64,000 nucleotides of DNA, taken from Cupriavidus sp. P-10. Lineage in GTDB: Bacteria > Pseudomonadota > Gammaproteobacteria > Burkholderiales > Burkholderiaceae. The notes below the pieces were generated by a model. That model had not been told where the DNA came from and did no database searches. It saw only the letters and a program-made list of their open reading frames with translations. The position numbers were made by a program, and so were the translations under genes. The stretch lies in the NCBI RefSeq assembly GCF_003402535.2, contig NZ_AP025173.1, forward strand, positions 1 through 64,000. The letters run 5' to 3'. Positions within the stretch are counted from its first letter, which is position 1. The number at the start of each line of letters is the position of its first letter. This document shows, in pieces, positions 37,350 through 63,885 of this stretch.

Positions 37350-37566
37350 TGCGTTCAGACGCATCGACCTAGTGCGCGCCGAATGGCGGCAGCGCTCAAT
37401 CTCATAGTCCCCCGCCCACGCCAGCGTGCTTTCGCCATGCGCTACTGCATGCCGCAAGCGCGTTGAAGCGCAGCTGTTCCTCCAGAGATTCCTTGCTCCC
37501 TCGGAGCATCGAACCATCGCCTGGCATCTGCCAGGAAATCCCTTGCAACGTTTCTGGAGAGAAACT
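37350..37566 (+). promoter_or_regulatory. Structured 5' leader of the 37567 gene
   Basis: Near the inferred transcript start lies hairpin TGCGT/ACGCA (37350-37363) followed by TCGACC. Close to the gene are hairpin CCTGGC/GCCAGG (37520-37535) and a last hairpin GTTTCT/AGAAAC (37550-37565), whose four-base loop is GGAG, the Shine-Dalgarno, with ATG two bases after the stem. One of seven leaders in this window with the ribosome site held in a terminal hairpin. Confidence 0.5.
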
Positions 37567-37875
37567 ATGGAATCCTTTGTCACGAATCTCATCAAGCGTC
37601 CATTCAAATTCTTCATGCTCTGCATGGTGTTGTACATGGCGTCGCAGTCGTTCATCGTCGGTGCCTTTGTGACCGTCGTTGGACTGTCATTCCTGTATCA
37701 CCGGGCCATGGTCTGGAACAAGGCCGTGCCCGCAGCGCCGAAGGTTTCGATGCCGGATACCCAATCCAAATCGAAGCACGAATCGCATCAAGTGGGAGAT
37801 CCGCTCGAGCAACCGTATGAACGCTCGGCTGTGGTGACGCCGCTTCGTCGAGCGGGAACGCACGACCGTTCCTGA
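37567..37875 (+). CDS. Small membrane protein
   Basis: A 102-residue protein with two adjacent hydrophobic segments (about 12-27 and 30-48) and a charged, probably cytoplasmic C-terminal half. ATG 37567 (MESFVTNLIKRPFKFFMLC) is set by GGAG in the leader hairpin loop; an upstream in-frame start would translate the structured leader. First gene of an operon with ssb. Not recognised. Confidence 0.65.
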   Translation: MESFVTNLIKRPFKFFMLCMVLYMASQSFIVGAFVTVVGLSFLYHRAMVWNKAVPAAPKVSMPDTQSKSKHESHQVGDPLEQPYERSAVVTPLRRAGTHDRS

Positions 37876-37929
37876 TCCGTTGCCGCCTCTCTGAGGCGGC
37901 GCTTTCCACCTGTCGCGGGTACCCGTTAT

Positions 37930-37971
37930 CCGCCGGCTGGCGGGTCTCCGGGTGCCTGTCCGGAGACCATC
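37930..37971 (+). promoter_or_regulatory. Leader with Shine-Dalgarno in a hairpin, gene 37972
   Basis: Hairpin CCGCC/GGCGG (37930-37943) is followed directly by stem GTCTCC/GGAGAC (37944-37949/37962-37967). The 3' strand of the second stem is the Shine-Dalgarno, four bases before the ATG. A further strong hairpin GCCGCCTC/GAGGCGGC lies at 37882-37900, just after the previous stop, possibly a processing or weak termination site. Confidence 0.5.
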
Positions 37972-38400
37972 ATGGAAACGACAACAGCGGGATGGCAGCT
38001 CGACTTCTTCGGTGAGGCGGCCGCCATCGTAGTGCCCCCTCCCAAGCTCGACCCGTTGCCCGACCCTTCTCTCTGGAGCAAGGCGGTGCGCGAGAAAATG
38101 GTCGACGCTCTCATCAGCCTCGCCTGCGATAGCCGGCGCGGCGACAACATGCCGGAGTCCCTCATCGACTGTGCCGAGATGCTGCGTGCCCGCATGCGCA
38201 ATCGGCCTCTCGATCTGGAGGAATACTCGATGACGCTCGGCTGGATCTTTGGCTACTGGAATGGCGCGTTGCCATATAGCTACGTCTGCGCAGTATCCGG
38301 GGTCGACCCTGAGACCCTGCAAGACGTGATTCTCAATCATGCCAGGCTGCGTTGCGACCTCGATGTGGTCCGACGTTTGTGCTGTGGCTCCCTTCTTTAG
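37972..38400 (+). CDS. Conserved hypothetical protein
   Basis: A 142-residue soluble, mostly helical protein (WSKAVREKMVDALISLACDS, EEYSMTLGWIFGYWNGALPY) with several cysteines towards the C-terminus. I do not recognise the family. Codon use and a strong hairpin-borne Shine-Dalgarno support it as a gene. It precedes the next gene by three bases. Confidence 0.6.
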   Translation: METTTAGWQLDFFGEAAAIVVPPPKLDPLPDPSLWSKAVREKMVDALISLACDSRRGDNMPESLIDCAEMLRARMRNRPLDLEEYSMTLGWIFGYWNGALPYSYVCAVSGVDPETLQDVILNHARLRCDLDVVRRLCCGSLL

Positions 38401-38403
38401 ACC

Positions 38404-39204
38404 ATGACTTGGCTCAATCTCATCAAGCGTGTGGCCGGTGTTCTGAGCGCGGAACACAGAGGGTCATCCTCTCCCAGCACGATCCCGGTCGGCACGGGCG
38501 CCGCCAACGAGCGGCAGTTCTATGTTCACGGCGTCCCCCATCTGCTTCGGGACGAAGGTGATCGCGTGATCCACTTCGTTGGGGGCTTTCATCATCGGCT
38601 GCAAAGCACGCCGTATGGCGACAAGCTGCTGCCGGAGGTGATCCCTCGTTGGAAACAGGTCAGCGTGCATCCAGGCGAAGCGCTGGAGAAGGTCGCGGCT
38701 GACGTCATTTTTCAAGCCGAGCGCGAACTCACGCCGGACGTGCCGACAAGTAGTGACGCGCCAGCAGGAGGGCGCCGCTTTCAGCCAACGCGTAGCTTGG
38801 ATGGCGCCCAGCCATCGCGCAGCAAACGCGAAGACGGCGAGCGGGAAGGGGGCGGAAGCGCCTCCTCTGAAAAGGGTTCCTCTTCCGCCTACACCGTGGG
38901 CAAGCTCATCGAGTGGGGCGAAATGGAGTTCCCCAACCGTAAGTCTGGCGGGCCTCGTACCTACACTTCGTTTGCCGTCAAGCTGTACACGAGTGCCGGC
39001 GAGAAGACCCTGCAGGGCGAAGGTCTGAAGGACGCTCTCGCAGAAGCCGGTTGCAAGCTGGGTGACCGTGTTGCGGTCAAACGCCTGCGCAAGGAAAAGG
39101 TGCCAGCCTTCGATAAGAAGACTGGCGATCCCATTAAGGACCCAAGGACCGGAGAGCAGAAGCTCTGGGACAGGTGGGTCTGGAACATCAATCTCGTTCA
39201 TTGA
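38404..39204 (+). CDS. Protein with a polyvalent-protein-type C-terminal domain
   Basis: A 266-residue protein. The N-terminal ~100 residues are unrecognised; a charged Ser/Arg/Glu-rich linker covers about 105-160. The last ~100 residues (GKLIEWGEMEFP, SFAVKLYTSAGEKTLQGEGL, LAEAGCKLGDRVAVK) resemble the small beta domain often found at the end of plasmid relaxases, primases and large polyvalent proteins. A DNA-processing role beside ssb and the primase is likely; no catalytic motif is seen. Confidence 0.55.
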   Translation: MTWLNLIKRVAGVLSAEHRGSSSPSTIPVGTGAANERQFYVHGVPHLLRDEGDRVIHFVGGFHHRLQSTPYGDKLLPEVIPRWKQVSVHPGEALEKVAADVIFQAERELTPDVPTSSDAPAGGRRFQPTRSLDGAQPSRSKREDGEREGGGSASSEKGSSSAYTVGKLIEWGEMEFPNRKSGGPRTYTSFAVKLYTSAGEKTLQGEGLKDALAEAGCKLGDRVAVKRLRKEKVPAFDKKTGDPIKDPRTGEQKLWDRWVWNINLVH

Positions 39205-39216
39205 ATAGGAAGCACC

Positions 39217-39786
39217 ATGGCATCCGTCAACAAAGTCATCCTCCTGGGCAACCTCGGGGCAGATCCTGAAACTCGTTACATGCCCAGTGGCGACGCGGTG
39301 ACAAACATCCGTATTGCGACCACCGATCGCTACAAGGACAAGCAGTCCGGCGAAATGAAGGAAGCCACCGAATGGCATCGCATTTCGTTCTTCGGCAAGC
39401 TGGCAGAAATTGCTGGTCAGTACCTGCGCAAGGGTTCGCCGGTCTACATCGAAGGCCGCATTCGTACGCGCAAGTGGCAGGATCAGTCCGGCCAGGACAA
39501 GTACAGTACCGAGATCGTCGCCGATCAAATGCAGATGCTCAGTGGTCGCGCGGGTGTCAACGATGACGACGGCGATGCCGGCGCAGAGCGAGCGGATTCG
39601 CAGCAGCGTCGTGGGAGCGAGCAGCGCTCGGCTCCGCCAACGCAACGCTCGGGCGCGGCGCGTCAGCAGCCTGCGCAACCGCCGTCGGGTGGATTCGGCG
39701 GATTCGACGACAATGAGATTCCCTTCGCGCGACCTGCAGTGCTCGATGGCATTCCCTTCCGCAACGATGGCGCGCCGATGTACTGA
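39217..39786 (+). CDS. ssb: Single-stranded DNA-binding protein
   Basis: A 189-residue SSB. The OB fold (about 1-110: [54 protein letters not shown]) is typical, followed by a Gln/Arg/Pro-rich linker. The acidic tip, normally the last residues (DDDIPF), appears as [12 protein letters not shown] and is followed by ~19 more residues ending GAPMY. Plasmid SSBs coat transferred strands in recipients. GGAA lies shortly before the ATG. The extended tail is unusual. Confidence 0.92.
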
Positions 39787-39819
39787 CGCGCTCCTCCAAG
39801 AAGTGCCTCTTTGAACTAA

Positions 39820-39853
39820 CTGCTACCGGCTTGCCCGGTAGCAGCGGTGCCTT
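39820..39853 (+). terminator. Hairpin after ssb, possible terminator
   Basis: Stem CTGCTACCGG/CCGGTAGCAG (39820-39829/39835-39844) with a 5-base loop, then CGGTGCCTTTCT. The stem is strong but the T-run is weak, so termination may be partial. The remaining bases up to 39966 hold a second GC-rich imperfect hairpin and no gene. Confidence 0.45.
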
Positions 39854-39966
39854 TCTCGGCCGCTCGGCCAAATCCCCATATTCCCCTCAGCTAAACGCAA
39901 TGCTGAAAAGACCTTCTGGCCTCGGCCGGGATGTCTTTTGAGCAAGCGTTCCTTCGCCTGTCTCAG

Positions 39967-39998
39967 GCATCGACCAACCCTCCACCTGGAGCCATCCC
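39967..39998 (+). promoter_or_regulatory. Leader with Shine-Dalgarno in a hairpin, primase gene
   Basis: GCATCGACC, also seen in other leaders, is followed by CTCC-acct-GGAG (39980-39991). The 3' strand is the Shine-Dalgarno, seven bases before the ATG. This is the shortest member of the leader family; its stem is only four base pairs. Confidence 0.35.
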
Positions 39999-41075
39999 AT
40001 GAAAGAACTGAGTGATATCGTAAAAAGCTGGACGCCCGCTCAATGGGACGCTCTGGTGAGGCAGTACGTGCCAGCGGAAGTCCTGACGGACAACTTCTGG
40101 CGAGGACGCCCAGGTCCGTGCCCCCTCTGTGGTGGCCATGACCGCTTTACCTATGACAACAAACGCGGCCGCGGCGATTGGGTCTGCCGGAAGTGCAATG
40201 CAGGGAATCCGAAAGCCGGCGACGGCCTCGAGCTCGTGCGTTGCTACACCGGCATGACCTACTCGGAACTGTGGCGGGACTTGAATGGCGAGCGGGCTGT
40301 GCCGATCGACCCCCCCTTTACGAGGCCAAATTCAGCTCGCCGGGGGAAAGCAGTAGATCCCGCCACCAAGATGCGGCGTATTGCGAAGCAGTGGGAAGCT
40401 GCTGCCGGGCTGGTGCCTGGCGATCACGCCATGCGCTATCTTGCTGCCCGGGTTCCTGGCCTGCGCGCGCCGCGGCCAACGGCCTTGCGCCTGGCGGTGC
40501 AGGACTATTGGTATGAAGGCCAGCTTGTTGGCCGCTACCCGACCATCGTTGCGCAATTCACACGGCCAGATGGGCGCATGGCCACGGTGCATCGCACGTC
40601 GCTCGACCCGCGACAGCCCGCCAAGGCGACGATAATCACTGCGGATGGGGAGATCCTCCCGGCCAAGCGCAATGGTGTGTCTGCGTTGCCGCTGACCGGT
40701 GGTGCAGTGCGTCTGATGCAACCGCGCGATGGTGAAGTTGGTGTCGCGGAAGGGCTGGAGAGCGCCTATGCGGCGTACATGCTCTTCGGCGTGCCGGCAT
40801 GGAATTGCCTCAACCGGGTACTGCTGAGTCAGTTTGTGGTGCCGCCGGACCTGGGCATCCGCACGGTCCACATCTTCGCGGATTTTGACAGGATCGACCC
40901 GAAGACCCGAAAGTCCCCAGGCATGGCCGACGCGCTCGCGTTGGAAAAGCGGTTGCGCGCCGAAGGGCTGCACACCGTCATGCATCGACCAAAGGTTCGT
41001 GGAACCGACTTCTGCGATCAATGGCGCACCGAGTACCAGTTGCGCCTGATGTCTCAACAGGCTGTTACCGCCTGA
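39999..41075 (+). CDS. Primase-like protein with zinc finger and TOPRIM domain
   Basis: A 358-residue protein. The N-terminal zinc-binding domain (CPLCGGHDRF ... WVCRKCNAG, about 40-70) is that of phage/plasmid primases, and a C-terminal TOPRIM-type domain (VAEGLESAYAAYMLFGVP, TVHIFADFDRID, ALALEKRLRAEG; about 245-345) carries the acidic residues. It resembles P4-alpha-type primases without the helicase. It could prime synthesis on the transferred strand. It follows ssb in the operon. Confidence 0.8.
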   Translation: MKELSDIVKSWTPAQWDALVRQYVPAEVLTDNFWRGRPGPCPLCGGHDRFTYDNKRGRGDWVCRKCNAGNPKAGDGLELVRCYTGMTYSELWRDLNGERAVPIDPPFTRPNSARRGKAVDPATKMRRIAKQWEAAAGLVPGDHAMRYLAARVPGLRAPRPTALRLAVQDYWYEGQLVGRYPTIVAQFTRPDGRMATVHRTSLDPRQPAKATIITADGEILPAKRNGVSALPLTGGAVRLMQPRDGEVGVAEGLESAYAAYMLFGVPAWNCLNRVLLSQFVVPPDLGIRTVHIFADFDRIDPKTRKSPGMADALALEKRLRAEGLHTVMHRPKVRGTDFCDQWRTEYQLRLMSQQAVTA

Positions 41076-41115
41076 TCAGTTCGCCACCAGCCGGTGGCGC
41101 CTTACCTAACCTCTG

Positions 41116-41178
41116 CCCTGTGGGTCCTTCCCACAGGGAAGGAGTCCCCCCTTGGCAGGCTCTCCGAGGAGAAAAGCA
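41116..41178 (+). promoter_or_regulatory. Leader with Shine-Dalgarno in a hairpin, gene 41179
   Basis: Hairpin CCCTGTGGG/CCCACAGGG (41116-41138) is followed by TCTCC-ga-GGAGA (41161-41172). The 3' strand contains GGAG, seven bases before the ATG. Same two-hairpin order as the leaders of genes 37567, 37972, 57885, 58183 and 63886. Confidence 0.5.
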
Positions 41179-41388
41179 ATGCCGCAAAAGGGTTTCACAG
41201 CAATCATCAATAAACTGCATATCCAAGCTATGCGTGCGACCGCCGCTACGGAAGTTCAGGCCGGACAATCGGAAGCGCAATTCTTCGATGTGTACCGCCG
41301 AGAGCCGTCCGGTGGCTTCACGTTCCTAGACCGGAAGTTCTCGTTCGATTCCGCCCTCGACTACTGTTTGGCGCCGACTCTTCACTGA
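41179..41388 (+). CDS. Small hypothetical protein
   Basis: A 69-residue soluble protein (MPQKGFTAIINKLHIQAMRA ... FSFDSALDYCLAPTLH). Supported by its hairpin-borne Shine-Dalgarno and by the terminator just after it. Last gene of the ssb operon before the mobile-element block. Function unknown. Confidence 0.6.
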   Translation: MPQKGFTAIINKLHIQAMRATAATEVQAGQSEAQFFDVYRREPSGGFTFLDRKFSFDSALDYCLAPTLH

Positions 41389-41404
41389 GAGGCCATCCCA
41401 TTCA

Positions 41405-41438
41405 CAAAAAAGCCCAGCAAACTGCTGGGCTTTTTTTT
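41405..41438 (+). terminator. Rho-independent terminator, split by an IS insertion
   Basis: Stem AGCCCAGCA/TGCTGGGCT with a three-base loop runs into eight Ts (41431-41438). The T-tract is the target of the ISL3-family insertion: its duplicate appears at 42772-42781 on the other side of the IS, directly before the group II intron. Confidence 0.85.
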
Positions 41439-42771
41439 GGTTCTTCGCCGATCTGCGTGACCGTTTAGAAACAAAAAGGGCCAACACGCCCACCACTGTT
41501 ATCTTGGAGTTGCGACACAACAAGAATCAGGAAGGTGGAGGTTGGCCCCACGCGATTGTATGGCCCAGCTCGGCTGCTGGGAAGGCTATCGCATGCGCGA
41601 TAGTTGGGAAGAGACCCGCAATGGGCAGCGTATTTGCATCATCCGGCTGGAACCTAAGGGGCGCCGTAGGCGGTGCTGCGATGGCTGTGGTCGGGGCGTT
41701 AGCAGTATCCATGATCGGGTAGAGCGGCGCGTGCGGGATCTGCCTGTGTTCGAGATTCCGGTGGAGCTGATCGTGCCGCGACTTCGTCTGGCTTGCCGGC
41801 GATGTGGCCCGAAGCTGGAGCGCCTGGACTGGCTCGCGCCCTATGCGCGGGTTACGACGCGGCTTGCGGCCAGCGTAGCGCAACTGTGCAAGGTCATGTC
41901 GTTGCGCCATGTCGCGGCCTTCTACCGGTTGGCCTGGACCACGGTCAAGCGCATCGATCTGCGCCATCTTGAGCGGGAATTGGGACCGGTCGATCTGAGC
42001 GGGGTCACGGTGATCGCGATGGACGAGTTTGCGATCCAGAAGGGCCATCGCTATGCCACAGTCATCGTCGAGCCGTCGAGCAAGCGGGTACTCTGGGTCG
42101 GGCGCGGTCGCTCCCGAGAGGAAATCCGGCCCTTCTTCAAGCTGCTTGGCCCTGAAGGCTGTGCCCGGCTTCGCGCCGCGGTGATGGACATGAATACCGC
42201 CTACGACCTGGAAGTGCGGATGCACTGCCCGCAAGCGGAGGTTGTCTATGACCTGTTCCACGTGGTGGCCAAGTACGGTCGTGAGGTCATCGACCGCGTC
42301 AGGGTGGATGAGGCTAATCGGCTGCGCGGCGACAAGACCGCTCGTCAGGTGGTGAAGTCTTCTCGTTGGTTACTGCTGCGCAATCGGGAGAACGTCACGC
42401 GTGAGGCCGATCAGATCCGGCTTGATGAAATACTGGCTGCCAACCAAGCGCTGATGACCGTCTACGTGCTCAAGGACGATCTCAAGACGCTCTGGACATA
42501 TCGGCATCCCGGCTACGCCCGGCGCTTCTGGCAAGGGTGGTACGAGCGCGCAATGGCCAGCGGCATCGCACCTCTGTGCCTGTTCGCCAAACGCCTCAAG
42601 CCATATTTACCCGGCATCCTGGCTCACAGCCGCTGGCCGTTGGGAACCAATCTGGTGGAAGGCATCAATAACCGGATCAAGGTCATCAAACGGATGGCCT
42701 ATGGCTTCCGCGATGACCATTACTTCTTCCTGAAGATCCGGGCGGCCTTCCCCGGAAATCGGTGAAGAACC
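41439..42771 (+). mobile_element. ISL3-family insertion sequence
   Basis: A 1333-bp IS. The left end GGTTCTTCGCCGAT matches the inverse of the right end ATCGGTGAAGAACC (one mismatch over 14). It is flanked by runs of eight or more Ts, consistent with the 8-bp AT-rich target duplication typical of ISL3. It contains one intact transposase gene. The insertion lies in a terminator T-tract. Confidence 0.85.
41560..42765 (+). CDS. ISL3-family transposase
   Basis: A 401-residue DDE transposase. The N-terminal zinc-binding region (CCDGCGRG ... RLACRRCG) and helix-turn-helix precede the catalytic domain: [20 protein letters not shown] (first Asp), [13 protein letters not shown] with [15 protein letters not shown], and [20 protein letters not shown] (Glu). 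All key motifs are intact. ATG 41560 is used; a TTG at 41542 close to GGTGGAGG could extend it by six residues. Confidence 0.85.
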
Positions 42772-42782
42772 TTTTTTTTTTG

Positions 42783-42815
<33 letters not shown>

Positions 42816-43765
42816 CAAGTCCCTTACACACCCGGCAAGGGGAAGTGTTAGCCAGAGACAAGGGTTTCCCGGGCGACTGGGAGTCTGAAGGAAGTCCGAG
42901 GCAAAGCGCTGGCCTGACGAACAGGAAGCGGATGAGGCGTCGTATCGGGGTGAGGTAGCCAAAATTGCCAAAGCCCAGTACTTGCACGGAACGGTGCGGC
43001 GTATATCCGACAGGCATAAGCGTGAAGGTGGGTGCGTCATACCCGGGGAGATCTGCACCGCTGCCATGGTGCTACCGACGTCGAGAGGCGTCGGGATGGC
43101 GGTGTAGAAGTCAGCAGAGGCCATATTGTGCGCTGAGCAGCGCGTTGTTCGGGAGGGTTCAAGTCCCTCTGACGCTCAGATGAGGGGCGTCATATCCAAA
43201 AGCGGGGGTAATGCCTCGCTGGCCGGAGAGAGAAGGCAGGTATGGAGATGCCTAACCGGGCACGAAGGCGAAAGCCGGAGACAGCCAAGGCAGACCTGGA
43301 GCCACCTTCCCGTAGGTCTCCGGAGGGCAGGGTGTCCACCGCGAGGTGGAATCCGAAGGGCATGAGGAGAAGTACCGGGCCGTAGTCGATGGGGGCTGCC
43401 CCGATGACGAACCGGTCGGCCAAAGGTGGGGCAAGGTCGAGCCCGCAGTATGGGGGCGAAGGCGTTCTCATTCACCCACCGCACCAAGGTGTTTGCGGAC
43501 GGCACGGTACGGAAGAACAGCGTGTGACCTCAGGAGGACTGGCACAGTCTGCGGGTGGCACCGCGGGAAGTGAGCCTATAAGCGAGGAGCGAAGTGGCGA
43601 GCGGTGCTGTGCCAGTAGTCGGACGGCTGAGTAGTACCTGAAGCGTGGCCAAAACCACGTGACCGAGCGATCGGCGACAGAAGTGGGTCGGGGAAGGCAG
43701 CCGGCGAAGATGATTGGGAAGAGCCCGGACGACAGTGAGTAAGGACACGGAGGAGGATCAGTTCC

Positions 43766-44099
43766 ATGAGTGAAATACCCGTACATCCGCGCCCGAGGAG
43801 ACTGTCTGACTGGATCAACCCGATGGAAGCAAGGAAGGTCCACTCATTAATTGACAAGGTTTTTCAACGGAAGAATCTGGAAGTCGCCTGGGAGCGAGTC
43901 CGGGCCAACCGGGGCAGTGGCGGTGTCGATGGAATCAGCGTGGCAGACTTTGCCGAACAGGCGGACCAGCATCTGGACCGTCTGCAGGCAGAACTGCGTG
44001 CGCGGACCTATCAGCCGCAACCGGTCCGGCAGGTCTCGATCCCGAAAGTCGGCAAACCGGGGGAGTTCCGCAATCTCGGCATACCGACGGTGATCTCAT
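43766..44099 (+). pseudogene. Group II intron reverse transcriptase, 5' fragment
   Basis: About 110 residues of an LtrA-type reverse transcriptase/maturase, from the start (MSEIPVHPRPRRLSDWINPM; GGAGG nine bases upstream) through RGSGGVDGISV and IPKVGKPGEFRNLGIPTV, where homology stops at the insertion and the frame ends at TAA two codons later. Continues at about 47009. Confidence 0.85.
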
Positions 44100-44109
44100 A
44101 ATGCACCTC

Positions 44110-46309: not shown

Positions 46310-46318
46310 CGACGCCCC

Positions 46319-46651: not shown

Positions 46652-46703
46652 TGGCGGACCACGTTAAAAACTGGTCTGATAGTAGGGCAATGAAATGCAT
46701 TGA

Positions 46704-50093: not shown

Positions 50094-50256
50094 TTGCCGT
50101 TTGGCCCATGCCTGGTATATGCTTCGAGCACTTACCGCGTCCCCGACGCATCGACCTCGCCGCCAGTTGCGCGGCAAATCCAGCACGCAAAACCCCGACA
50201 TTCGGGCCTTGCGATCGCCAGTTGTTCACGCCGGAAATTGAAACGGCATTTTTTTC
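50094..50256 (+). ncRNA. Candidate free-standing small RNA sharing the leader head
   Basis: A promoter TTGCCG (50094) - 16 bp - TATATG (50116) is followed by hairpin GCGTC/GACGC (50137-50149), ATCGACC, hairpin GCCGC/GCGGC (50159-50175) and hairpin CCCGA/TCGGG (50194-50206). A weak terminator, GCCG/CGGC with seven Ts (50230-50255), ends it. No gene with a ribosome site follows. The head is the same as in the leaders of genes 57885 and 63886. It may be a trans-acting RNA or the remnant of a leader whose gene was lost. Predicted length about 130 nt. Confidence 0.4.
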
Positions 50257-50417
50257 AATTAAATCAAATGGACCGTGTCGGATAGTGAGGACACCGGACA
50301 CCGCGATACCAAGCCGATTGGCGGTCTGTTCGTGAAAATAGACCGCAGTGTGGACAATTCCGAAGCCGGACACCGGACAGGTGCTCTGTGGAATTTCCAC
50401 GAATGCCCGACGCCCTT

Positions 50418-50738
50418 TCAGCCGCTTGGCTGGGCGCGGATCACGAAGCCCGACACACCGCAGCAGGGATGATCCGGCTTTGGGGCGGGGAGCTGTTTGC
50501 GTACCGAACGAGCGGTGGACGCAGGCTTCTGAGCAATATCGACCCGGGGGGCGCTACCGGTACCAGAACGGCGCAACAAGTAATCACTCATCACGGCATC
50601 GGCCGGCTGCACCAGGACGAAATCCCTGGCGCCGTCAGGCTGGCATCCATTGATGCACCGGATAGGGTGGCCGCGCAGCGGCGTGCAAGGCGAAGGCCTG
50701 CGCCCGCACTGCGGACAGTCACGACGCATTGCTTCCAT
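50418..50738 (-). CDS. Possible small zinc-binding protein
   Basis: A 106-residue frame with a CPQCGRRPSPCTPL zinc-ribbon-like start and further cysteines, ending RAQPSG. There is no convincing Shine-Dalgarno. An opposing plus-strand frame at 50388-50750 is about equally open, so which strand is coding, if any, is unclear. The surrounding 50.26-50.95 kb shows no other gene. Confidence 0.3.
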   Translation of the reverse strand: MEAMRRDCPQCGRRPSPCTPLRGHPIRCINGCQPDGARDFVLVQPADAVMSDYLLRRSGTGSAPRVDIAQKPASTARSVRKQLPAPKPDHPCCGVSGFVIRAQPSG

Positions 50739-50950
50739 GCTCAGGGCTGATCGGTTTGGCATCGCTAAAGGACAGGAAGGTAGTGGCAAGACCGGCTGGG
50801 TGGGCTGGAAAGCTGGGGGTGGTACCCCGGAGCACCGAGGGGACAAAGCCGGATCGGGGGTCGGCGCTGTCCAGCAGCGAGCTGCGAGGTCCCATGGCGG
50901 ACACTCGCCCGTGGCCGCACGCGCGAAGCGCAAAAGTTCGAGAACGCCGT

Positions 50951-54353: not shown

Positions 54354-54355
54354 TG

Positions 54356-55249: not shown

Positions 55250-55366
55250 TGGTGAATCCTCCTTGCCTACCAGGCTTTCGTGGATGGTGAATGCTTTAGT
55301 GGACCGCCTGAACTATCGTGAACCTAGCGTAGCGCGCGCGACCCGAAGTCACGCAAGGAGTGAACC

Positions 55367-55549
55367 ATGTGGACTTGCACGAAGTGCCGTCTCTCGGTGA
55401 TGTTTAACACGGCAGACCCACAGCTGGACGAACGCGGTTTCTTTTTCACCTGCCTTGGGTGTGAACATAGAAATCCGCTCGCCCGGGTTGGACCAACGCA
55501 CAGGGGCGACGATGATCCCCTGTATCTCGCTCAAGTCGTGGATGCCTAA
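55367..55549 (+). CDS. Small zinc-ribbon protein
   Basis: A 60-residue protein with two CxxC pairs (WTCTKCRL, FTCLGCEH), hence a zinc ribbon. AAGGAG lies six bases before the ATG, a strong start. It converges with the next minus-strand gene and overlaps it by four bases. May be a DNA- or RNA-binding accessory; unrecognised. Confidence 0.6.
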   Translation: MWTCTKCRLSVMFNTADPQLDERGFFFTCLGCEHRNPLARVGPTHRGDDDPLYLAQVVDA

Positions 55550-57045: not shown

Positions 57046-57203
57046 GGTAACGAGGTATCGAATGGTCTATGACCAAGATACCGGCGCCATCGCGAAGTCA
57101 AGGCCGCCGGCCGGCGAGATTCGCCAAACACATTCTCAAGGCGCCCGTGGCGGGAGTTGCGCCCGAAAGCTATAGAATTTGGGGTATCTTTTCGGGAAAT
57201 CCC

Positions 57204-57719
57204 ATGTCATCACCCCAGACCCCCGCCGTTCGCGAGGTTTCCCTCGGCGCGCGGCCCAAGAGCGAACGCGAGTTCATCCCGCCCGGCGACCCGCAATACG
57301 CGGAAATCGCGATGCTTGATGCCTTCACGTTCAAGCGCTATCTCGACCGGACGTTCTGGTACCCGAGGCGGGAAGTGCTGCGCTTCGAGGTTCGGGCGAT
57401 GCCGTCGCCGACCGGCAGCATCTACGACGTCGTGGCGCTGGTCGCGTCGGGGGAGGGCGAGGCGTGGTTTTCTGAGGCCGCAGTGCCCGCACGATGGGAC
57501 TATGTCGCCATCAGCGAAACCAGTCACGGCCTGTCGAAGATGCAGACCGCCAAGCTGAAGGCAGAGGGCAAGCTGCCCGCTGACTATGAGCCGTTCGGGG
57601 ACGATGGGCCGGTGCTGGATCACTCCAACCTGGAGAACCCGGAAGAGGTTGACCTGCGCCGGTGGGATGTGGTGAACCGCGTGCGCGAGGCAAGCCGGCA
57701 GCGACGCGCGACAGGTTGA
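57204..57719 (+). CDS. Hypothetical protein, paralogue of the 58183 gene
   Basis: A 171-residue protein. Residues about 25-105 (DPQYAEIAMLDAFTFKRYLD, YDVVALVASGEGEAWFSEAA, VPARWDYV) align in the same order with residues 25-100 of the product at 58183. I chose ATG 57204 (MSSPQTPAVREVSLG): a -10-like TATAGAAT lies about 30 bp upstream, whereas the in-frame start at 57069 would precede it. Function unknown. Confidence 0.6.
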   Translation: MSSPQTPAVREVSLGARPKSEREFIPPGDPQYAEIAMLDAFTFKRYLDRTFWYPRREVLRFEVRAMPSPTGSIYDVVALVASGEGEAWFSEAAVPARWDYVAISETSHGLSKMQTAKLKAEGKLPADYEPFGDDGPVLDHSNLENPEEVDLRRWDVVNRVREASRQRRATG

Positions 57720-57736
57720 GCCGCAGCTGGGGGGAC

Positions 57737-57884
57737 TTGTCCCCGAGCGACGATTCGCAGTAATATCCGCCCGATTCTTCGCGCTTTCAGCGCATCGACC
57801 CTGCCGGTGTACCGGCCATCTTTTTTTTCCACCCATTGGGGCTTTGCCCAATGGGGAAGGCTCCATTCTTTTTTGGAGCCTTGC
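57737..57884 (+). promoter_or_regulatory. Promoter and structured leader of the 57885 gene
   Basis: TTGTCC (57737) - 18 bp - TAATAT (57761). Then hairpin GCGC/GCGC (57781-57793), ATCGACC, hairpin GCCGGT/ACCGGC (57803-57816) followed by CATC and eight Ts, which looks like an attenuator. Next come hairpin CCCATTGGG/CCCAATGGG and a last stem AAGGCTCC/GGAGCCTT (57857-57882). The 3' strand of the last stem carries the Shine-Dalgarno, two bases before the ATG. Confidence 0.5.
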
Positions 57885-58094
57885 ATGGTTGTCTCCTCCC
57901 GTATCAGCGCTCTGGCTGTCTTTGCGACGGTCATCAACCTGTTCGCGGTCCTGTATTTTCTTATCTTCACCGCCGACGATCGCCTTGCGATGATGCAAGT
58001 GCACTTCGTTGCCGAAATCGAGTTTCTGGTCCTGATCAGTTGGCTTCTTGCGAAGCTGTCGATTGCGGAGCAGAAGCCTTCCATTGCAGGCTGA
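57885..58094 (+). CDS. Small membrane protein
   Basis: A 69-residue protein with two hydrophobic segments (about 8-28 and 44-58) separated by a charged loop (FTADDRLAMMQVH). The start is fixed by GGAG in the leader stem. Unrecognised; same leader class as the 37567 gene, which also encodes a small two-helix membrane protein. Confidence 0.6.
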   Translation: MVVSSRISALAVFATVINLFAVLYFLIFTADDRLAMMQVHFVAEIEFLVLISWLLAKLSIAEQKPSIAG

Positions 58095-58126
58095 CCCATC
58101 GCGGGCGCCTGCCAATCCATCCACTA

Positions 58127-58182
58127 CCCACCGGGGAAACGTCCCCGGTGGGGCGTTTCTCCAACTCGCTTGAGGAAACGCT
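58127..58182 (+). promoter_or_regulatory. Leader with Shine-Dalgarno in a hairpin, gene 58183
   Basis: Strong hairpin CCCACCGGGG/CCCCGGTGGG (58127-58152) is followed by stem GCGTTTC/GAAACGC (58153-58159/58175-58181), with GAGG at the loop/3'-strand boundary and ATG one base after the stem. There is no own promoter; it is an internal leader within the operon. Confidence 0.5.
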
Positions 58183-58665
58183 ATGTTCATCCACTCTCTT
58201 TCCATCGAAGTCGGGCCGGTGCCTGCCGATGAATCCTGCGCGCAGGTCGGGCACCCCGACTATGAGGCGAAATCTCGCCTGGAATGCGCGGTCTACATCC
58301 GTCAGCTGAAGCGGGTCTTTGGCAATCCGGATCCGCTCACGCTCACGTTTGAGCGCCGCGGATTTGCGCACGACCTCGGCCGTTACCATGAAGTGGTTGC
58401 CATCATGACGGCTGCGGGCGCGGATCTATTCGACGAAGCCAAGGTCCCGACGGGCTGGGATGCGATAGCGCGCGCGGAGCTCACATGGCTGCGCCTACAA
58501 GCACGGTGGCGCGAGCAGGTCGTTGCCGGAGCTGTCGACATGACGGAAGTGCCGGCCGTGTTCTGCAGCACCACGATTCCGGATTTCCCTGATCACCCGG
58601 TTTCGGCCTGGTGGGCGATGGGCTTCTCGCCCTTGCCCGCTGGTCCGGCGATCTCCCTGCACTAA
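58183..58665 (+). CDS. Hypothetical protein, paralogue of the 57204 gene
   Basis: A 160-residue protein. HPDYEAKSRLECAVYIRQLK, YHEVVAIMTAAGADLFDEAK and VPTGWDAI line up with the 57204 product; the C-terminal ~55 residues (VFCSTTIPDFPDHPVSAWWA) differ. Probably a duplicated, diverged pair. Function unknown. Confidence 0.6.
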   Translation: MFIHSLSIEVGPVPADESCAQVGHPDYEAKSRLECAVYIRQLKRVFGNPDPLTLTFERRGFAHDLGRYHEVVAIMTAAGADLFDEAKVPTGWDAIARAELTWLRLQARWREQVVAGAVDMTEVPAVFCSTTIPDFPDHPVSAWWAMGFSPLPAGPAISLH

Positions 58666-58677
58666 TTTGGAGGCCGC

Positions 58678-59463
58678 ATGTACAACGAAATCATTGAGCG
58701 CTTCGTCAGGGCCCAGGAGGCGGCATGTGCAGCCTATCGTTCGGCTGCGAGCTTCGAGCGCGAGTGCCTGGCAGGCATCCCCGGGAACAGCCACACTGTG
58801 GAGATTCGCTCCGAGTATGGAACGGCCAGGGAGCTTGAAAGCTTCTGCTCTTCGCTTGCCGGCAATGTGGTCAACCGCGCTCGCCGCGAGTTTGCTCCTG
58901 CGGGAACACGTCTGGACATCGACGATACCAAAGAGCATGAGCACGCGGGCCTGGACATCGGCAAGGCGCTCAAGGCTGGGAAGATCCCCGACATTGACGG
59001 GCTGTGGGCGTCGCTTCATGACCGCTATGGCGGGAGTGGCGGCAAGGAACTGGCCTACCAGCAAGCTGCGCAGCGGATCATCAAAGGCTTCTGGCTCAAC
59101 CGGCGCAATGAGGTTCAGCGCACCGCGTCAGCGGTGATTCTGCGCATGCGAGTGACTTCGGAAGGCTGCTACGGGCGATCGTGCAGGAAGGTGGGCTACT
59201 ACAGCTGCCAGACTGCCGCGGATTGCCTGCAGGGCCTCACCGCTTTTGCTGCCAAAGCGGGTCACTCGTCGCTGGCCAGTGGCCTCTCGCGTATCAATGT
59301 CCACAACATTGAGTACAACTACCGCGAGAAGCAAAGCCATCCTGGGCTTGACATCGTCTTCTTCAAAGACGGGTGGGAGTTCAAGTTTTCCCACCAGGTG
59401 GCCGAGGCGTTGATGCTGTTCATCGGCGAATTTGGCGCTGCGTTCATGGAAGAGACGGCCTGA
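58678..59463 (+). CDS. Hypothetical protein, possibly DUF4942-like
   Basis: A 261-residue protein preceded by GGAGG four bases before the ATG. The helical N-terminus (IIERFVRAQEAACAAYRSA) and a C-terminal part with GLDIVFFKDGWEFKFSHQVA recall DUF4942 proteins found with plasmid and phage methylases, which would suit the methylase-helicase downstream. The match is weak. A degenerate copy of its last ~35 residues may lie at about 59915-60017. Confidence 0.5.
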   Translation: MYNEIIERFVRAQEAACAAYRSAASFERECLAGIPGNSHTVEIRSEYGTARELESFCSSLAGNVVNRARREFAPAGTRLDIDDTKEHEHAGLDIGKALKAGKIPDIDGLWASLHDRYGGSGGKELAYQQAAQRIIKGFWLNRRNEVQRTASAVILRMRVTSEGCYGRSCRKVGYYSCQTAADCLQGLTAFAAKAGHSSLASGLSRINVHNIEYNYREKQSHPGLDIVFFKDGWEFKFSHQVAEALMLFIGEFGAAFMEETA

Positions 59464-60087
59464 CACGCGATGTAAGCTACCGATGGTGAGACGCGGATTC
59501 CCGTCACCGGCCATGCCAAATCTGAGAAGCCATTCGAGCCGGCGATGCACCCGATCTCGATGACTTCCGGGAAACGTCTGCGCCGCATCTATGGGGCCAA
59601 CGGACACGCCATGGCCGTTCAGTAAACGGCCCAGACACTCCCACGGGCCCTTGGGCTAGCCAGCAGTATGGCAGCCCGGCGCACAGCCACGGCGATGCGG
59701 ATGCGTTTGGTGGCGATATCGGAACAGGTCGACGGCGCCGAACATCCGATGCGGCAACTGCATTTCGGCTCGCTGGAGCGGTGATAGCCGCCTTCTTCGC
59801 GCTGGCAGTGTTTGCGCGCTGCATGAGCCACGCGCCGCTGGCAAGTTGCCTGGCAAGGTGCCACGCAAGCGATCCATTCCAGCCGCAGCAGCGTCAGACC
59901 CTCCCTGGCCTCAACAACATCCAGTTAAACGAGTACTGGGAGTTGCGCTTCGCACTTCCGATCGCGGGCACGTTGCTGGCCTTCGTCCAGCAGCAGGCTG
60001 GCACCTACCGAGTTTGAATGGCGGATTTCGCATTCGATCCACTACATGCCTCGTCTTTGATGGGGCGTTTTTCTTATGGGACCTATC
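59464..60087. other. Gene remnants between 58678 and the methylase-helicase
   Basis: No intact gene is visible. 59480-59623 (plus) reads ETRIPVTGHAKSEKPFEPAM to GHAMAVQ-stop without a start. 59668-59784 (plus) reads MAARRTATAMRMRLVAISEQ to FGSLER-stop, perhaps a truncated peptide. 59915-60017 (plus) reads LPGLNNIQLNEYWELRFALP, similar to the end of the 58678 product. 60030-60087 is the short upstream region of the next gene, with GATCCACTAC and a weak GCCTC/GGGGC hairpin. Confidence 0.35.
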
Positions 60088-63000
60088 ATGACCAATTGGT
60101 ACGAGCCCTTACGGGCTATTGTGAGCCTCGGCTCGCAAGCCGAAAAAGTCGCGCACATGGGCGAGTTGCACGCGGCGCGTAAGCGCCATCTTTCGCAGTT
60201 CTTCACCCCGGATGTGATCGCCCGCCTGATGTGGGGTGTGGTGGCCGACTGGTTGCCGGATCGGAAGGTGTCCATCCTGGACAATTCTGTCGGGTCCGGC
60301 CGTCTGCTGCAGTTTGCAGATCCGGTCAGGTACAGCCTCTTTGGTGTGGACGTGCACAAACCAACGATCGAGATAATTCAACAAGCAATCGAGGCAGCCG
60401 GCTTCGACGGCAGCTTTCGGCACGCTGGGATGGAGGATATTCATCCGCGCAGATTCGATATCGCGCTAATAAATCCCCCGTTCTCGATTCATCTGGAGTC
60501 GCCACACCTGCAGCCCTACGACTGCACGACATGGGGCCGGTTTGGCCCGCGTACCAGCGCGCTGAGCCATGAGTACGCACTTGCCCAGGCACTCGACGCC
60601 TCACAAGTCGTGGTCGCCTTGCTTCCGACCACGTTTGTCGACAAGTTTGCTGATGGGTCGATTCCGCATGGCGAGCCATATAGCGATGCCTCGCGTCGCG
60701 TGGTGGGTGCATTCGACCTACCCGCGAACGCGTTTCGTGAGGAAGGCGCCGAAGTGCGCACCTCCATCGCCGTGTTTGCTCGCTACCGCGTGCGGGGAGG
60801 CATTCTGCGCCAGCCGGTGCGGGATCTGTCGACACCGTTGCCGAAGCTCCAGCTGGAGTGGGACGAGCGGCGATATGGAGAGCCGAAGCTGGCACACCAG
60901 CTGCTGGACGATCACGGTCCCGCTATCACGCGGCCTGTAACCTCGCAGAAACGGGTACGCATCTCGCATGACGGCCGCCGGATCATCCTCGGCTTCGAGT
61001 GCGGATTCACCGAGGCGATGGTGCTCAACCATGTGTTGGAACGCCGAATCGTATCGCAGGAAGGTCAGCGGCTACCGAGCGGCTTTTGCTATGCGGGCAC
61101 GGGTCGGCTGGATCTGGAAACCTACCTCGTGCAGGCAGATCCGATCGCTGCGCTTCGCGAGCTCGTGAGGCTGGTGAAGCGCGCAGGCGGCGAGCCGGAG
61201 TTCGCGCCGGGCTTTCTGGAGCATTTGCACCAGCGGCTGCGCCGCAGTGCGCGGCAGGCGCTGCCTCTGCGCCATGCCGTTTGGACAACGGGCGTCGGCG
61301 CCGTGAACATGCTCGTTGCGGTCGCGACCAAGACGCATGTGGTCGACACCACCGTCTGGGGAAGCCCGATTATCAAAGCTGGCCAGGCAGTGCAGTTTGC
61401 CCGGCAGGCAGATGGTCGATATGAGTACGAGGTGCGCGGGAAGCGCTACGTCGTCTCGTTGGACGAAATCACCACCCGATACAGTGTCGAGAAATCGGCG
61501 CAGGCCTGGGAAATCGTCCATGAAGGGCTGCAACGCCGTTATCCGCAACAGGCCAACCAGCTGCGCAAGCGGCTGCTGGCGTTGGGAATCGACAAGTGGT
61601 TGGACTGGCAATTCCAGCAGGAAGACCTGGTCGAGCTGCTGATGAAGCCCAACGGCGCAGTAGCGGCATGGGAGCAGGGCTGTGGCAAGTCGCGGCTCGC
61701 TGCGGCACTGATCCTGCTGTCCGGGGTTCGGCATGGCCTGATCGTGGTGGAAGCCAGACTGGTCCCGGAGATGCGCGCGGAACTGGGGCAAATTCTGCCG
61801 GCGTCGGATGTTCACGTGATCGAGTCGCCGGAAGACCTGAGTACGCTGGGACGAATCAACCTGATCGCCTACGAACGGCTTCGCATGCCGGTATGCCGGA
61901 AGGCGTCGCGGCGTGTCACCTATGCCCATCGGCTGCGCCGGCGTATCAGTCTGCTGGTGGCAGACGAGGGCGAGCGGTTGTCGAACCCGACCAGTGACCA
62001 GAGCCGCGCGCTATGGCAGCTGTCGGCCAGACGCCGCTATATCCTGACAGGCAGCCCGATCGCCAACTATCCGCGTGACATCTTCGGACTGATCGCGTTC
62101 ACGGGTGGCGACGGCACTGCGGCCCAGCCGTACGGCTACCGGCGCGGCTACCTCGAGGCGAACTGGCTGGCCACGGCGCAGCATGCCGAACGAGGTATCG
62201 ACCGCTTCCGCAGTGATTTTGTGGTGCTGGAGTGGGTGACCTGGGAATTTGCGGAGAGCCTGCAGGACGGGGCGAAGCGCGAAGTGCCGAAGATTGGCAA
62301 TCTCCCGCGGTATCGCCAGATGCTGGCGCCGCACGTGAAGCGTCGCTTGGTCTGCGAGCCCGACGTGTCGCGGTACATCCAGATCGAGCCACCAGCTGTG
62401 GAGGTGGTCGAGACGGACTGGGATCCTGCTCACCTGTCGCTCTACCTGCGTACGGCGGACGAGTTTGCCGAATGGTACCGGGACGTCCGCAAGGATGGCC
62501 GGCCGAACAATCTGATTGCCATTCTTGCCAGGATCCGTGCGGTGCATTTCGCCGCCAACTACCCGCAGCACGGGGTAGACGGTGTCGGCGGGCTGGCGCA
62601 GCTCACCAGCAAGCAACGCGCCGTGGTTAAACGGCTGGTGGCAATTGCCGCCGAAGGGAAGCAGGCCATCCTGTTTGCCGAGAACCCGGGGGTTATCGAC
62701 CTCATCGCCAGTCAGCTGAAGGCGAAGGGGGTGGAGACCGTGCCGTTCCATGGTGGCATTCCGATTGCGAAGCGCGTGGCCGACAAGGACAAGCGGTTCG
62801 TCGGCGGCAACGCCACAGGGCTTCTTTGTACCAAGGCGTCCGGCCGGGCTGGCTACAACCTGCCCAATGCTGACTACGTCCTCTTCTATGATCGTTCGTG
62901 GACGTGGCGCATCGAGTATCAGGCGATGCGGCGCGCGCTGCGGTGGAACCGGAAAGGGCAGTTAAAGGTGGTGTATTTCCATCTGCCGGGAAGCGTCGAT

Positions 63001-63192
63001 TGCTATCAGGACCAGATGGTGGCGCACAAACGGGACGCCATGGAGGCTGGTCTGGACTGGGCGACGCCGGAACTCGAAGACGAGGCGTTCCTGCACATGG
63101 ACACGCTGTTAGACCATTTTGTTGAAGATCTCGCCAAGCTGCACGGCCGCAAGGTCCGGGATCAACGCGAGCTGCTTAAGGAGGCGGCATGA
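60088..63192 (+). CDS. Fused N6-adenine methyltransferase and SNF2-like helicase
   Basis: A 1034-residue two-domain protein. The N-terminal methylase (about 1-270) has the QFFTP motif, SAM motif DNSVGSGRLLQF (about 65) and catalytic NPPF (about 130). The helicase (about 500-1000) has WEQGCGKSRLA (about 530), LLVADEGERL (about 624), YILTGSPIANYPRDIF, then IEYQAMRRALRWNRKGQ as motif VI. No nuclease motif is seen. The layout recalls phage P1 DarB-type antirestriction proteins and plasmid methylase-helicase fusions. ATG 60088 is preferred over 60076 because GGGA precedes it. It may protect incoming plasmid DNA or act in defence. Confidence 0.75.
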   Translation: MTNWYEPLRAIVSLGSQAEKVAHMGELHAARKRHLSQFFTPDVIARLMWGVVADWLPDRKVSILDNSVGSGRLLQFADPVRYSLFGVDVHKPTIEIIQQAIEAAGFDGSFRHAGMEDIHPRRFDIALINPPFSIHLESPHLQPYDCTTWGRFGPRTSALSHEYALAQALDASQVVVALLPTTFVDKFADGSIPHGEPYSDASRRVVGAFDLPANAFREEGAEVRTSIAVFARYRVRGGILRQPVRDLSTPLPKLQLEWDERRYGEPKLAHQLLDDHGPAITRPVTSQKRVRISHDGRRIILGFECGFTEAMVLNHVLERRIVSQEGQRLPSGFCYAGTGRLDLETYLVQADPIAALRELVRLVKRAGGEPEFAPGFLEHLHQRLRRSARQALPLRHAVWTTGVGAVNMLVAVATKTHVVDTTVWGSPIIKAGQAVQFARQADGRYEYEVRGKRYVVSLDEITTRYSVEKSAQAWEIVHEGLQRRYPQQANQLRKRLLALGIDKWLDWQFQQEDLVELLMKPNGAVAAWEQGCGKSRLAAALILLSGVRHGLIVVEARLVPEMRAELGQILPASDVHVIESPEDLSTLGRINLIAYERLRMPVCRKASRRVTYAHRLRRRISLLVADEGERLSNPTSDQSRALWQLSARRRYILTGSPIANYPRDIFGLIAFTGGDGTAAQPYGYRRGYLEANWLATAQHAERGIDRFRSDFVVLEWVTWEFAESLQDGAKREVPKIGNLPRYRQMLAPHVKRRLVCEPDVSRYIQIEPPAVEVVETDWDPAHLSLYLRTADEFAEWYRDVRKDGRPNNLIAILARIRAVHFAANYPQHGVDGVGGLAQLTSKQRAVVKRLVAIAAEGKQAILFAENPGVIDLIASQLKAKGVETVPFHGGIPIAKRVADKDKRFVGGNATGLLCTKASGRAGYNLPNADYVLFYDRSWTWRIEYQAMRRALRWNRKGQLKVVYFHLPGSVDCYQDQMVAHKRDAMEAGLDWATPELEDEAFLHMDTLLDHFVEDLAKLHGRKVRDQRELLKEAA

Positions 63193-63434
63193 AGACTGAC
63201 GACTGCAGGATCGCCATTGGCGATGGCTTGGCGACGATCAAGTGCCGCGGCACCCGCGGTACCACCGTGGCAAGGATCCTGGGTACCGTCGAGGCAGACG
63301 GGATGGAGGTGATCTGCCTGGATCGGCTGGTGCATGGCATTTTTGAATCGGAGCTGGACGGCTGGCAAGTTGCCGGCGCGGTCACCACGCTGCTGTCGCG
63401 GCCCATCGGCCCGCGGCATGGCGTGCACCACTAA
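63189..63434 (+). CDS. Small protein coupled to the methylase-helicase
   Basis: An 81-residue protein whose ATG overlaps the upstream stop (ATGA), with GGAGG just before it, so it is translated with the large protein. The sequence is mostly beta-like (CRIAIGDGLATIKCRGTRGT, EADGMEVICLDRLVHGIF). Unrecognised; co-translation suggests a partner or regulator of the large protein. Confidence 0.6.
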   Translation: MKTDDCRIAIGDGLATIKCRGTRGTTVARILGTVEADGMEVICLDRLVHGIFESELDGWQVAGAVTTLLSRPIGPRHGVHH

Positions 63435-63606
63435 TCGAATCGCCTGGTCGCGCGCGGCCGGGCTTTCGCTCGTACCTGACTCGACCGAGTCAATATCAGG
63501 CGAAAGACGAAAGAAATTGGCGAGCGTTTGGGCGACAGCGAAAGCTGTTCGCCCCATGCTGGTTTCGGCAGCCCCCGCTACGGAAACCCTCTCGCACTTG
63601 CTCCCA

Positions 63607-63636
63607 GCCCTCCCTTCCAGAGGGCATTTTTTTTTG
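63607..63636 (+). terminator. Rho-independent terminator
   Basis: Stem GCCCTC/GAGGGC with a 7-base loop followed by nine Ts, ending the methylase-helicase unit. Between 63435 and this site is a longer imperfect hairpin (CTTTCGC about 63473, GCGAAAG about 63500) and no gene. Confidence 0.75.
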
Positions 63637-63698
63637 AACAACCGCAGGAGCCAATCCGTTGCTACGATCATCAGGTCGGGTGGGCTAGCGTGGGCCTA

Positions 63699-63885
63699 TT
63701 GATCCGGAGGGCTGACTTCGGATACTCTCTTACCACTTTCCGCGTCCCAGACGCATCGATCCGGCACCGCAAGGTGCCAGCTTCTGCAGTACGGTGGCCG
63801 CCGGGCCAGTCCATCCATTCCATCCCGCCGGGAACCACGTTCCCGGTGCGGCAACGGGTTCCCCATTCCTCTTCGGAGAACCCCA
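63699..63885 (+). promoter_or_regulatory. Promoter and structured leader of the 63886 gene
   Basis: TTGATC (63699) - 16 bp - GATACT (63721). Then hairpin GCGTC/GACGC (63742-63754), ATCGATC, hairpin GGCACC-gcaa-GGTGCC (63763-63778) and, nearer the gene, hairpin CCGCCGGGAAC/GTTCCCGGTGCGG (63825-63851). The last stem GGGTTC/GAACCC (63856-63883) has GGAG at its 3' edge, and the ATG follows two bases after the stem. The most complete member of the leader family. Confidence 0.55.

Follow-up and report, generated by a model that had tools for sequence, protein, structure and literature searches.

A common 5' element and Shine-Dalgarno hairpins suggest a post-transcriptional regulon of bistable leaders on Burkholderiaceae PRTRC plasmids

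Backbone genes of the PRTRC plasmids of Burkholderiaceae probably make up a post-transcriptional regulon whose leaders would be bistable; this is the reading that we favour, with some reserve, from comparisons of sequence and from calculated folding, and wherever mechanism goes beyond these we infer it. The case rests on a 64,000-nucleotide stretch of Cupriavidus sp. P-10 DNA (the window; positions 1 to 64,000 of contig NZ_AP025173.1), in which a preliminary description had drawn attention to seven genes, at 37567, 37972, 39999, 41179, 57885, 58183 and 63886, each said to hold its Shine-Dalgarno (SD) sequence in a hairpin just before the start codon. Many transcripts of this plasmid share one layout: behind a sigma70-like promoter whose spacing is fixed come a 5-bp hairpin (A), predicted at +8 of the RNA, and then AUCGAYC. 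Single cistrons, some of them inside operons, carry a further hairpin (C) and, directly before the start codon, an SD hairpin (D). The anti-SD strand (X', the 5' arm of D) is also complementary, in about half of 15 leader families, to a mimic of the SD strand formed by the 5' arm and loop of C.

The window belongs to a pRK1-1-like Cupriavidus PRTRC megaplasmid: positions 37340-41400 are 100% identical, over the 4,061 bases compared, to plasmid pRK1-1 of C. basilensis DSM 11853 (NZ_CP062805.1), which is annotated as a conjugative PRTRC megaplasmid. It is the reverse strand of contig C32, such that a position in the pRK1-1 record equals 428320 minus the window position, and the same genome holds a second related plasmid contig, C18. 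Coordinates are window positions on the + strand unless marked otherwise; h-names (e.g., h24369) denote pRK1-1 genes by their end coordinate in locus L353, or, for h342049, by record coordinate.

A common promoter and 5' hairpin

Hairpin A has a 5-bp stem and a 3-nt loop, mostly GCGTC-N3-GACGC, followed by ATCGAYC; the search required pairing, and the stem variants include GCGCT/AGCGC, GCCTG/CAGGC, TGCTC/GAGCA and others. When sites were instead anchored on the 3' side alone (GACGCATCGA[CT]), 75 of 79 distinct sites on plasmid stretches had the GCGTC 5' arm 3-4 nt upstream, and the same anchor occurred once, without the hairpin, in 400 kb of the large contig taken as the chromosome. Upstream, TANNNT stands exactly 13 nt before hairpin A at 53 of 82 non-redundant sites, and an A occupies -7 from the hairpin at 54 of the 82; if TANNNT is accepted anywhere from 10 to 16 nt before the hairpin, 56 sites have it, 38 of these with a TTG at a spacing of 17-18 nt. 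From the spacing of the -10 and the A at -7, the RNA is predicted to start 7 nt before hairpin A.

Because the seven whole leaders do not align, no single covariance model could represent them, and a model (R1) was instead made for the shared 28-nt element at the 5' end, from 56 of 73 non-redundant sites. Promoters obeying the 82-site spacing rule, each followed by hairpin A, occur before gene 57885 (-35 TTGTCC and -10 TAATAT, 57737-57766; GCGCT-TTC-AGCGC with ATCGACC, 57781-57800, R1 score 33.6 bits), before gene 63886 (TTGATC and TACTCT, 63699-63728; GCGTC-CCA-GACGC with ATCGATC, 63742-63761, 39.7 bits) and upstream of an annotated integrase-domain gene (TTGCCG and TATGCT, 50094-50123; hairpin A with ATCGACC, 50137-50156, 41.9 bits). 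The hairpin A of gene 57885 reads GCGTC/GACGC in a divergent ortholog (L113). The primase-like gene 39999 is preceded by GCCTG-TCT-CAGGC and ATCGACC (39956-39975, 32.6 bits), conserved in most orthologs, and gene 37567 by a variant, GCTCC-CTC-GGAGC and then ATCGAA (37495-37513), for which relatives keep TGCTC..GAGCATCGAA. The promoter and hairpin A of the integrase-domain gene lie about 800 nt before its annotated start (50137-50950); either the leader is very long or a small gene in between has escaped annotation.

The element is concentrated on plasmids. In the genome itself, all 16 matches to the exact hairpin-A pattern belong to the two plasmid contigs and, within each contig, to a single strand; the reversed pattern has no match in this genome. 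Model R1, which was built partly from these same sites, gave 21 matches of at least 30 bits when 150 of 9,276 first-look candidates were scored: 11 on C18, 10 on C32 and none elsewhere, the next match (26.8 bits) being on another contig. The pattern was present in 35 of 59 Cupriavidus genomes and in 124 of 397 Burkholderiaceae genomes, where it clusters on contigs and its reverse was matched once. A draw from the order yielded 13 positive genomes out of 300, along with two reversed-pattern matches; three of the 13 are Burkholderiaceae, and the other ten do not have two matches on one contig. By tally, a PRTRC_B gene is found in 28 of the 31 Cupriavidus genomes that have at least two hairpin-A sites vs. 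1 of the 28 others. The leader family is also carried by pMOL28 of C. metallidurans CH34; PMC7563307 reports that the -10 consensus of the other replicons was not found on pMOL28, and Cappable-seq start-site tables for this laboratory strain have been published (PMC9045368). On the minus strand of pMOL28 (NC_007972.2), the layout predicts RNA starts, taken as the 5' end of hairpin A plus 7 nt, at about 75119, 78883, 82676, 83384, 90669, 130858 and 137004, less firmly for those sites that have no -10.

Hairpins at the start codons

Pairing of the SD was assessed by RNAfold-type folding, as a paired probability (P) and as the cost of opening the SD, with 200 upstream mononucleotide shuffles per leader as the control. 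The terminal hairpin proposed for all seven genes is present at six of them, but that of gene 41179 does not hold as drawn: the stem TCTCC/GGAGA would enclose only 2 nt and therefore cannot form, and RNAfold pairs this SD differently (P 0.68). The strongest case is gene 57885, in which AAGGCTCC/GGAGCCTT (57857-57882, pairing 57857-57864 with 57875-57882; also evident in the alignment) closes the SD with P 1.00 at an opening cost of 14.9 kcal/mol, as high as which none of 200 shuffles came. For gene 58183 (GCGTTTC/GAAACGC, 58153-58181) the values are P 0.98 and 7.7 kcal/mol (11/200 shuffles), and for gene 63886 (GGGTTC/GAACCC, 63856-63883) P 0.77 and 7.3 kcal/mol (21/200); orthologs as well as folding support both hairpins, as they do those of the genes that follow. 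The CTCC/GGAG stem of gene 39999 (39980-39991) is confirmed, with only 4 bp and P 0.98. Gene 37972 has a 9-bp hairpin (GGTCTCCGG/CCGGAGACC, 37943-37968; P 0.89), but the minimum-free-energy structure of the single sequence in the window is a different fold. At gene 37567 the hairpin GTTTCT/AGAAAC (37550-37565) exists and places the SD, GGAG, in its loop, as had been described, but for that very reason the SD is open (P 0.00).

A second hairpin lies upstream of the first in six of the seven leaders, as had been noted, the exception being gene 39999. That of gene 37567 (hairpin B, CCTGGC/GCCAGG, 37520-37535) stands 14 nt from the terminal hairpin and shows double changes at two pairs among 15 orthologs. 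Hairpin C precedes gene 41179 at 41116-41138 (CCCTGTGGG/CCCACAGGG), gene 57885 at 57832-57855 (57832-57840 with 57847-57855; folding and alignment), and, by orthologs and folding, gene 58183 at 58127-58152 and gene 63886 at 63828-63846. The 70-aa open reading frame at 63886-64000, which runs past the end of the window, resembles the neighbouring PRTRC ParB gene at its N-terminus and has a near-copy of the ParB leader, apparently as a result of a partial duplication of leader and gene start.

Occlusion of the SD is greater on the plasmid than on the chromosome. The medians of the 15 families exceeded the values of 220 leaders with script-called starts (median 2.1 kcal/mol) on the large Cupriavidus contig taken as the chromosome (Mann-Whitney p = 6e-6); this comparison replaced an earlier one of SD pairing, with poorer start calls, in which p was 0.04.

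Leaders are conserved in orthologs at more than 20 loci, among the Burkholderiales-named stretches that were examined out of at least 117 matched in a genome-contig scan. Their layout is kept in orthologous Cupriavidus leaders and, for some genes, in contigs of Paraburkholderia, Caballeronia, Burkholderia and Ralstonia. The proposal that stems vary while pairing is kept, as in a conserved RNA family, is supported by pair counts in the ortholog alignments, whose shuffle controls ignore the relatedness of sequences. Hairpin C of gene 41179 (20 distinct sequences) has 94.6% of its cells paired and eight doubly changed cells, neither of which was reached in 500 shuffles, together with two doubly changed pairs (215/500); it is this upstream hairpin, and not the terminal stem, that covaries. 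In the h24369 leader (13 sequences), C and D together are 85.0% paired (6/500), with nine doubly changed cells (1/500) and five doubly changed pairs (31/500), and the 15 sequences of the gene 37567 leader have five doubly changed cells (6/500). Chance hairpins are rejected on the conservation, the pair counts and the anchor test on hairpin A. Adjacent C and D hairpins ahead of starts with an SD were also sought in a generic scan, but its specificity was weak (hits per 1000 candidates: chromosome, 42; the two leader regions of the window, 65; the next 25 kb of the plasmid, 86; 547 kb of relatives, 51), and the scan was thus not used as evidence.

A shared layout and a plausible translational control are features of the preliminary description that find support, but the seven leaders do not fit one simple model. 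Their unity lies in the common promoter, in the 5' hairpin with AUCGAYC, and in the way hairpin C imitates the SD strand with its arm and loop.

Alternative pairing of the anti-SD strand

If the mimic is specific to its own leader, X' should pair better with the hairpin C of its own family than with those of others. With C and D defined regardless of any alternative pairing and without overlap, the mean cognate energy was -7.33 kcal/mol vs. -5.22 (standard deviation 0.31) when families were reassigned, a difference not attained in any of 50,000 permutations (177 of 180 leaders, 15 families); an earlier version, which allowed C and D to overlap by up to 4 nt, had given 0/20,000 before the test was repeated. 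The cognate partner ranked first of 15 in six families (ParB/63886, 57885, h24369, h27135, h28819 and h342049) and second for 58183. A variant that took the 14 nt directly after C (180 leaders) had the same overall result (z = -6.8; 0/50,000); in it the ATP-binding gene rose to first and 41179 to second, and h27135 fell to 13th.

The alternative helix itself covaries in h24369 (13 sequences), where 91.4% of cells are paired and four pairs and nine cells are doubly changed, each value being reached by no more than one of 500 shuffles. Across genera, there are triples in which mimic, X' and SD strand change together, e.g., the gly-zipper leader, which reads GGGCAACC/GGTTGCCC/GAGGCAACC in L168 and GGGCAATC/GATTGCCC/GAGGCAATC in L144. 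Forcing the SD open made the alternative hairpin the best fold in the leaders of ParB, h28819, h24369, h342049 and 57885 (one leader each). Among RNAs ending before the SD, 42 of 101 leaders (summed over 10 families) had it in their best fold, so that a window of opportunity in the nascent chain is possible, though not general.

Within the window, the alternative hairpin of gene 57885, which is the best fold of that leader with the SD open, would span 57838-57864 (57838-57849 with 57853-57864) and enclose a 3-nt loop. The corresponding pairings are predicted at 58133-58162 for gene 58183 (58133-58146 with 58150-58162) and, with one bulge, at 63830-63863 for gene 63886 (about 63830-63840 with 63854-63863), the latter resting on the rank of the ParB/63886 family and the SD-open fold of ParB.

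Forty further sites from other Burkholderiaceae genera were picked from the listed pattern matches for their clustering on contigs, and all have hairpin A by construction. A -10 stood 13 or 14 nt before it in 29 of the 40, and cognate pairing again beat the permuted assignments, which did as well in 841 and 754 of 50,000 trials (p of about 0.016; 30 of 33 script-analysable leaders, 8 families).

Evidence against bistable leaders

Several observations weigh against a regulon of bistable leaders, or against its generality. Starting with the stability of the two states, C and D together are predicted to be far more stable than the SD-open state, by a median of 4.9-11.2 kcal/mol in 11 of 15 families, so a switch would need a factor or kinetics. 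Taken singly, only three of 16 leaders exceed the shuffles of their own upstream sequence at the 5% level (57885, 0/200; h28819 and the ATP-binding gene, 4/200 each), with 58183 close at 11/200; the case is therefore carried by conservation, pair counts and the cognate test. As judged by folding, genes 37567 and 41179 are without convincing SD sequestration. In the pENH92 orthologs, the opening cost was reached by 68 of 200 shuffles for 39999, an energy not beyond chance, and by 112 of 200 for 37972, and it was 0.0 for 41179.

Covariation and cognate ranks are likewise uneven. The two doubly changed pairs of the 37567 leader were reached by 264 of 500 shuffles, and the eight sequences of 57885 are too conserved to inform: C and D are 91.9% paired (87/500) and the alternative helix 94.7% (500/500, with no double changes), and neither shows useful covariation. 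Some orthologs have lost parts of the leader, such as the 5' arm of C before 58183 in L031 and hairpin A before 39999 in L110 and L111. In the cognate test, 37972, h25997 and the ATP-binding gene ranked only third or fourth of 15, and h27696, 41179, the gly-zipper leader (whose helices were misplaced by the script), 37567 and 39999 ranked tenth to fourteenth. Out-of-sample support for the decoy pairing is modest, because start codons were script-called and some are probably wrong (e.g., L452, L455 and L460), and it is not fully independent, because contigs G401:C8 and G191:C49 equal in length those already sampled as L162 and L174.

At the 5' end, 26 of the 82 hairpin-A sites are without a -10 at the expected place, some having variants such as CACAAT in the same position and others an inverted repeat that ends in a short T run.

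An inverted repeat, long but imperfect, and TTT(T)ACCC often precede these -10-less sites (for instance TGTTCCGACAG..CTGTCGAAAC); one such site lies upstream of L353:24192-24219 (-). The repeat could be a terminator, a processing site or an unusual promoter.

Other explanations

A possible explanation without any switching is that the hairpins are static brakes, lowering translation of the backbone genes to a fixed level as a saving of cost, with the mimic arising incidentally from duplicated or GC-rich repeats. Such brakes would suit the strong preference for C and D in folding, the families that have no alternative pairing and the fact that a trigger is not known. A brake has no need of a mimic or of a common 5' hairpin, and it does not account for the cognate pairing of mimic and X', unmatched in 50,000 permutations, or for the covariation in h24369; we consider it unlikely, if the most serious of the rivals.

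The position of hairpin A at +8 of the predicted RNA and its variable loop would also be expected of an mRNA stability element, in which A protects the 5' end from RNase E or RppH and C and D protect the message or guide its processing. This would leave the conservation of AUCGAYC, the overlap with the SD and the mimic unexplained, and as the whole account of the leaders we find it improbable.

Inverted repeats regularly placed near promoters, on a plasmid whose annotation includes ParB and an FlhC-family regulator, might alternatively be DNA-level sites, i.e., operators or plasmid maintenance sites for a protein such as one of these, with RNA folding incidental. However, the stems change with pairing kept and the loops are free, as suits RNA, the predicted +1 precedes hairpin A, and C and D adjoin start codons even inside operons, making this explanation very unlikely.

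Single-stranded DNA promoters like Frpo, starting expression from entering plasmid DNA in the recipient, would fit the presence of ssb and a primase-like protein among the genes, the single orientation of all elements on each of two plasmid contigs and the inverted repeat upstream of part of the -10-less sites, but this is the least probable of the explanations and is rejected as a general reading, given the ordinary -10 that 56 of 82 sites have ahead of hairpin A (38 of them with a -35 TTG), the position of hairpin A after the predicted start, the differing transfer systems of the host plasmids (MOBP/MPF_F in pRK1-1, MOBH/MPF_T in pMOL28) and the placement of C and D at start codons.

Relation to known systems

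The comparison with Rfam that had been suggested returned no leader match: scanned against Rfam 15 at the gathering score, the whole window yields a tRNA, two group II intron fragments and nothing else, and at relaxed thresholds the two leader regions gave 8 and 2 weak, unrelated matches. The tRNA is a Met-like gene of about 88 nt with a CAT anticodon, carried on the plasmid at 1692-1779 (ARAGORN and Rfam). The intron domains (RF02001 and RF01998, 42867-43158) adjoin an ISL3-family transposase gene beside the backbone cluster. The gene of the FlhC-family regulator and an adjacent hypothetical gene (34573-36969, - strand) are also beside the cluster and are candidates for transcriptional control of the plasmid. 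A literature search, with subscription papers and preprints outside its scope, turned up no description of this leader family.

In translational riboswitches and related anti-SD platforms, the region upstream of the start codon can form an anti-SD helix or an anti-anti-SD helix, but not both at once. By sequence and calculation, about half of the leader families resemble them in this respect, but no large conserved aptamer was noticed: the common part is only hairpin A with AUCGAYC, and the sequence of the mimic differs from family to family. In ermC-type translational attenuators the SD is likewise sequestered by mutually exclusive hairpins, and a leader peptide is needed. Frpo promoters (PMC11541004) are folded elements before plasmid ssb-region genes, as here, but they hold the -35 and -10 inside the folded single strand, whereas in the present leaders both lie upstream of hairpin A.

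A known neighbour is sbcD RNA (RF01757), which PMC2864571 lists as a candidate structured RNA of Burkholderiales whose role in cis-regulation is uncertain. It occurs on the same plasmid backbone, in pRK1-1, C18 and pMOL28, where its start lies about 270 nt downstream of that of one hairpin-A element, and is above the cut-off in 29 of 59 Cupriavidus genomes. sbcD is, however, a 155-nt multi-stem RNA, and none of the window leaders reaches its Infernal gathering score of 40 bits. Its sites downstream of hairpin A are at L353:17878-18031 (-), L375:5660-5811 (+) and L425:4688-4842 (-); in L353 and L425 it precedes a hypothetical gene and then a DNA repair exonuclease gene.

A model of the leaders

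In a regulon of bistable leaders, many transcripts would start, behind the fixed-spacing sigma70-like promoter, at the A lying 7 nt before hairpin A and AUCGAYC. A closed C would leave X' available to bind the SD, and translation would be off; should C open, or during synthesis of the RNA, X' would instead form an alternative hairpin with the mimic, frequently enclosing a 3-nt loop, and leave the SD free. The pyrimidine-rich stretch before C could act as a ribosome standby site. Control by a protein, a small RNA or temperature had been suggested, of which temperature is made unlikely by a melting calculation: the median probability that the SD is open at 45 C was at most 0.019 in the 10 families examined, and an RNA thermometer was rejected.

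Hairpin A with AUCGAYC is the likely recognition or stability element for a shared factor, protein or small RNA, that would set many leaders together. A bolder form of the model, which we think doubtful, is that one trans-acting factor reads this element and switches about a dozen bistable leaders together, each through its private SD mimic, such that backbone genes (ParB, the SSB region, the primase-like protein, a nuclease and the integrase) are translated only in a certain phase, e.g., once the plasmid has reached a new cell.

Large conjugative plasmids are a burden to the host cell, and little is understood of how they keep dozens of backbone genes quiet but available. A repeated leader that joins a 5' hairpin and an SD mimic of its own to a fixed promoter would bring many genes under one translational control in a modular way, and the leader family gives the orphan sbcD RNA a genomic context.

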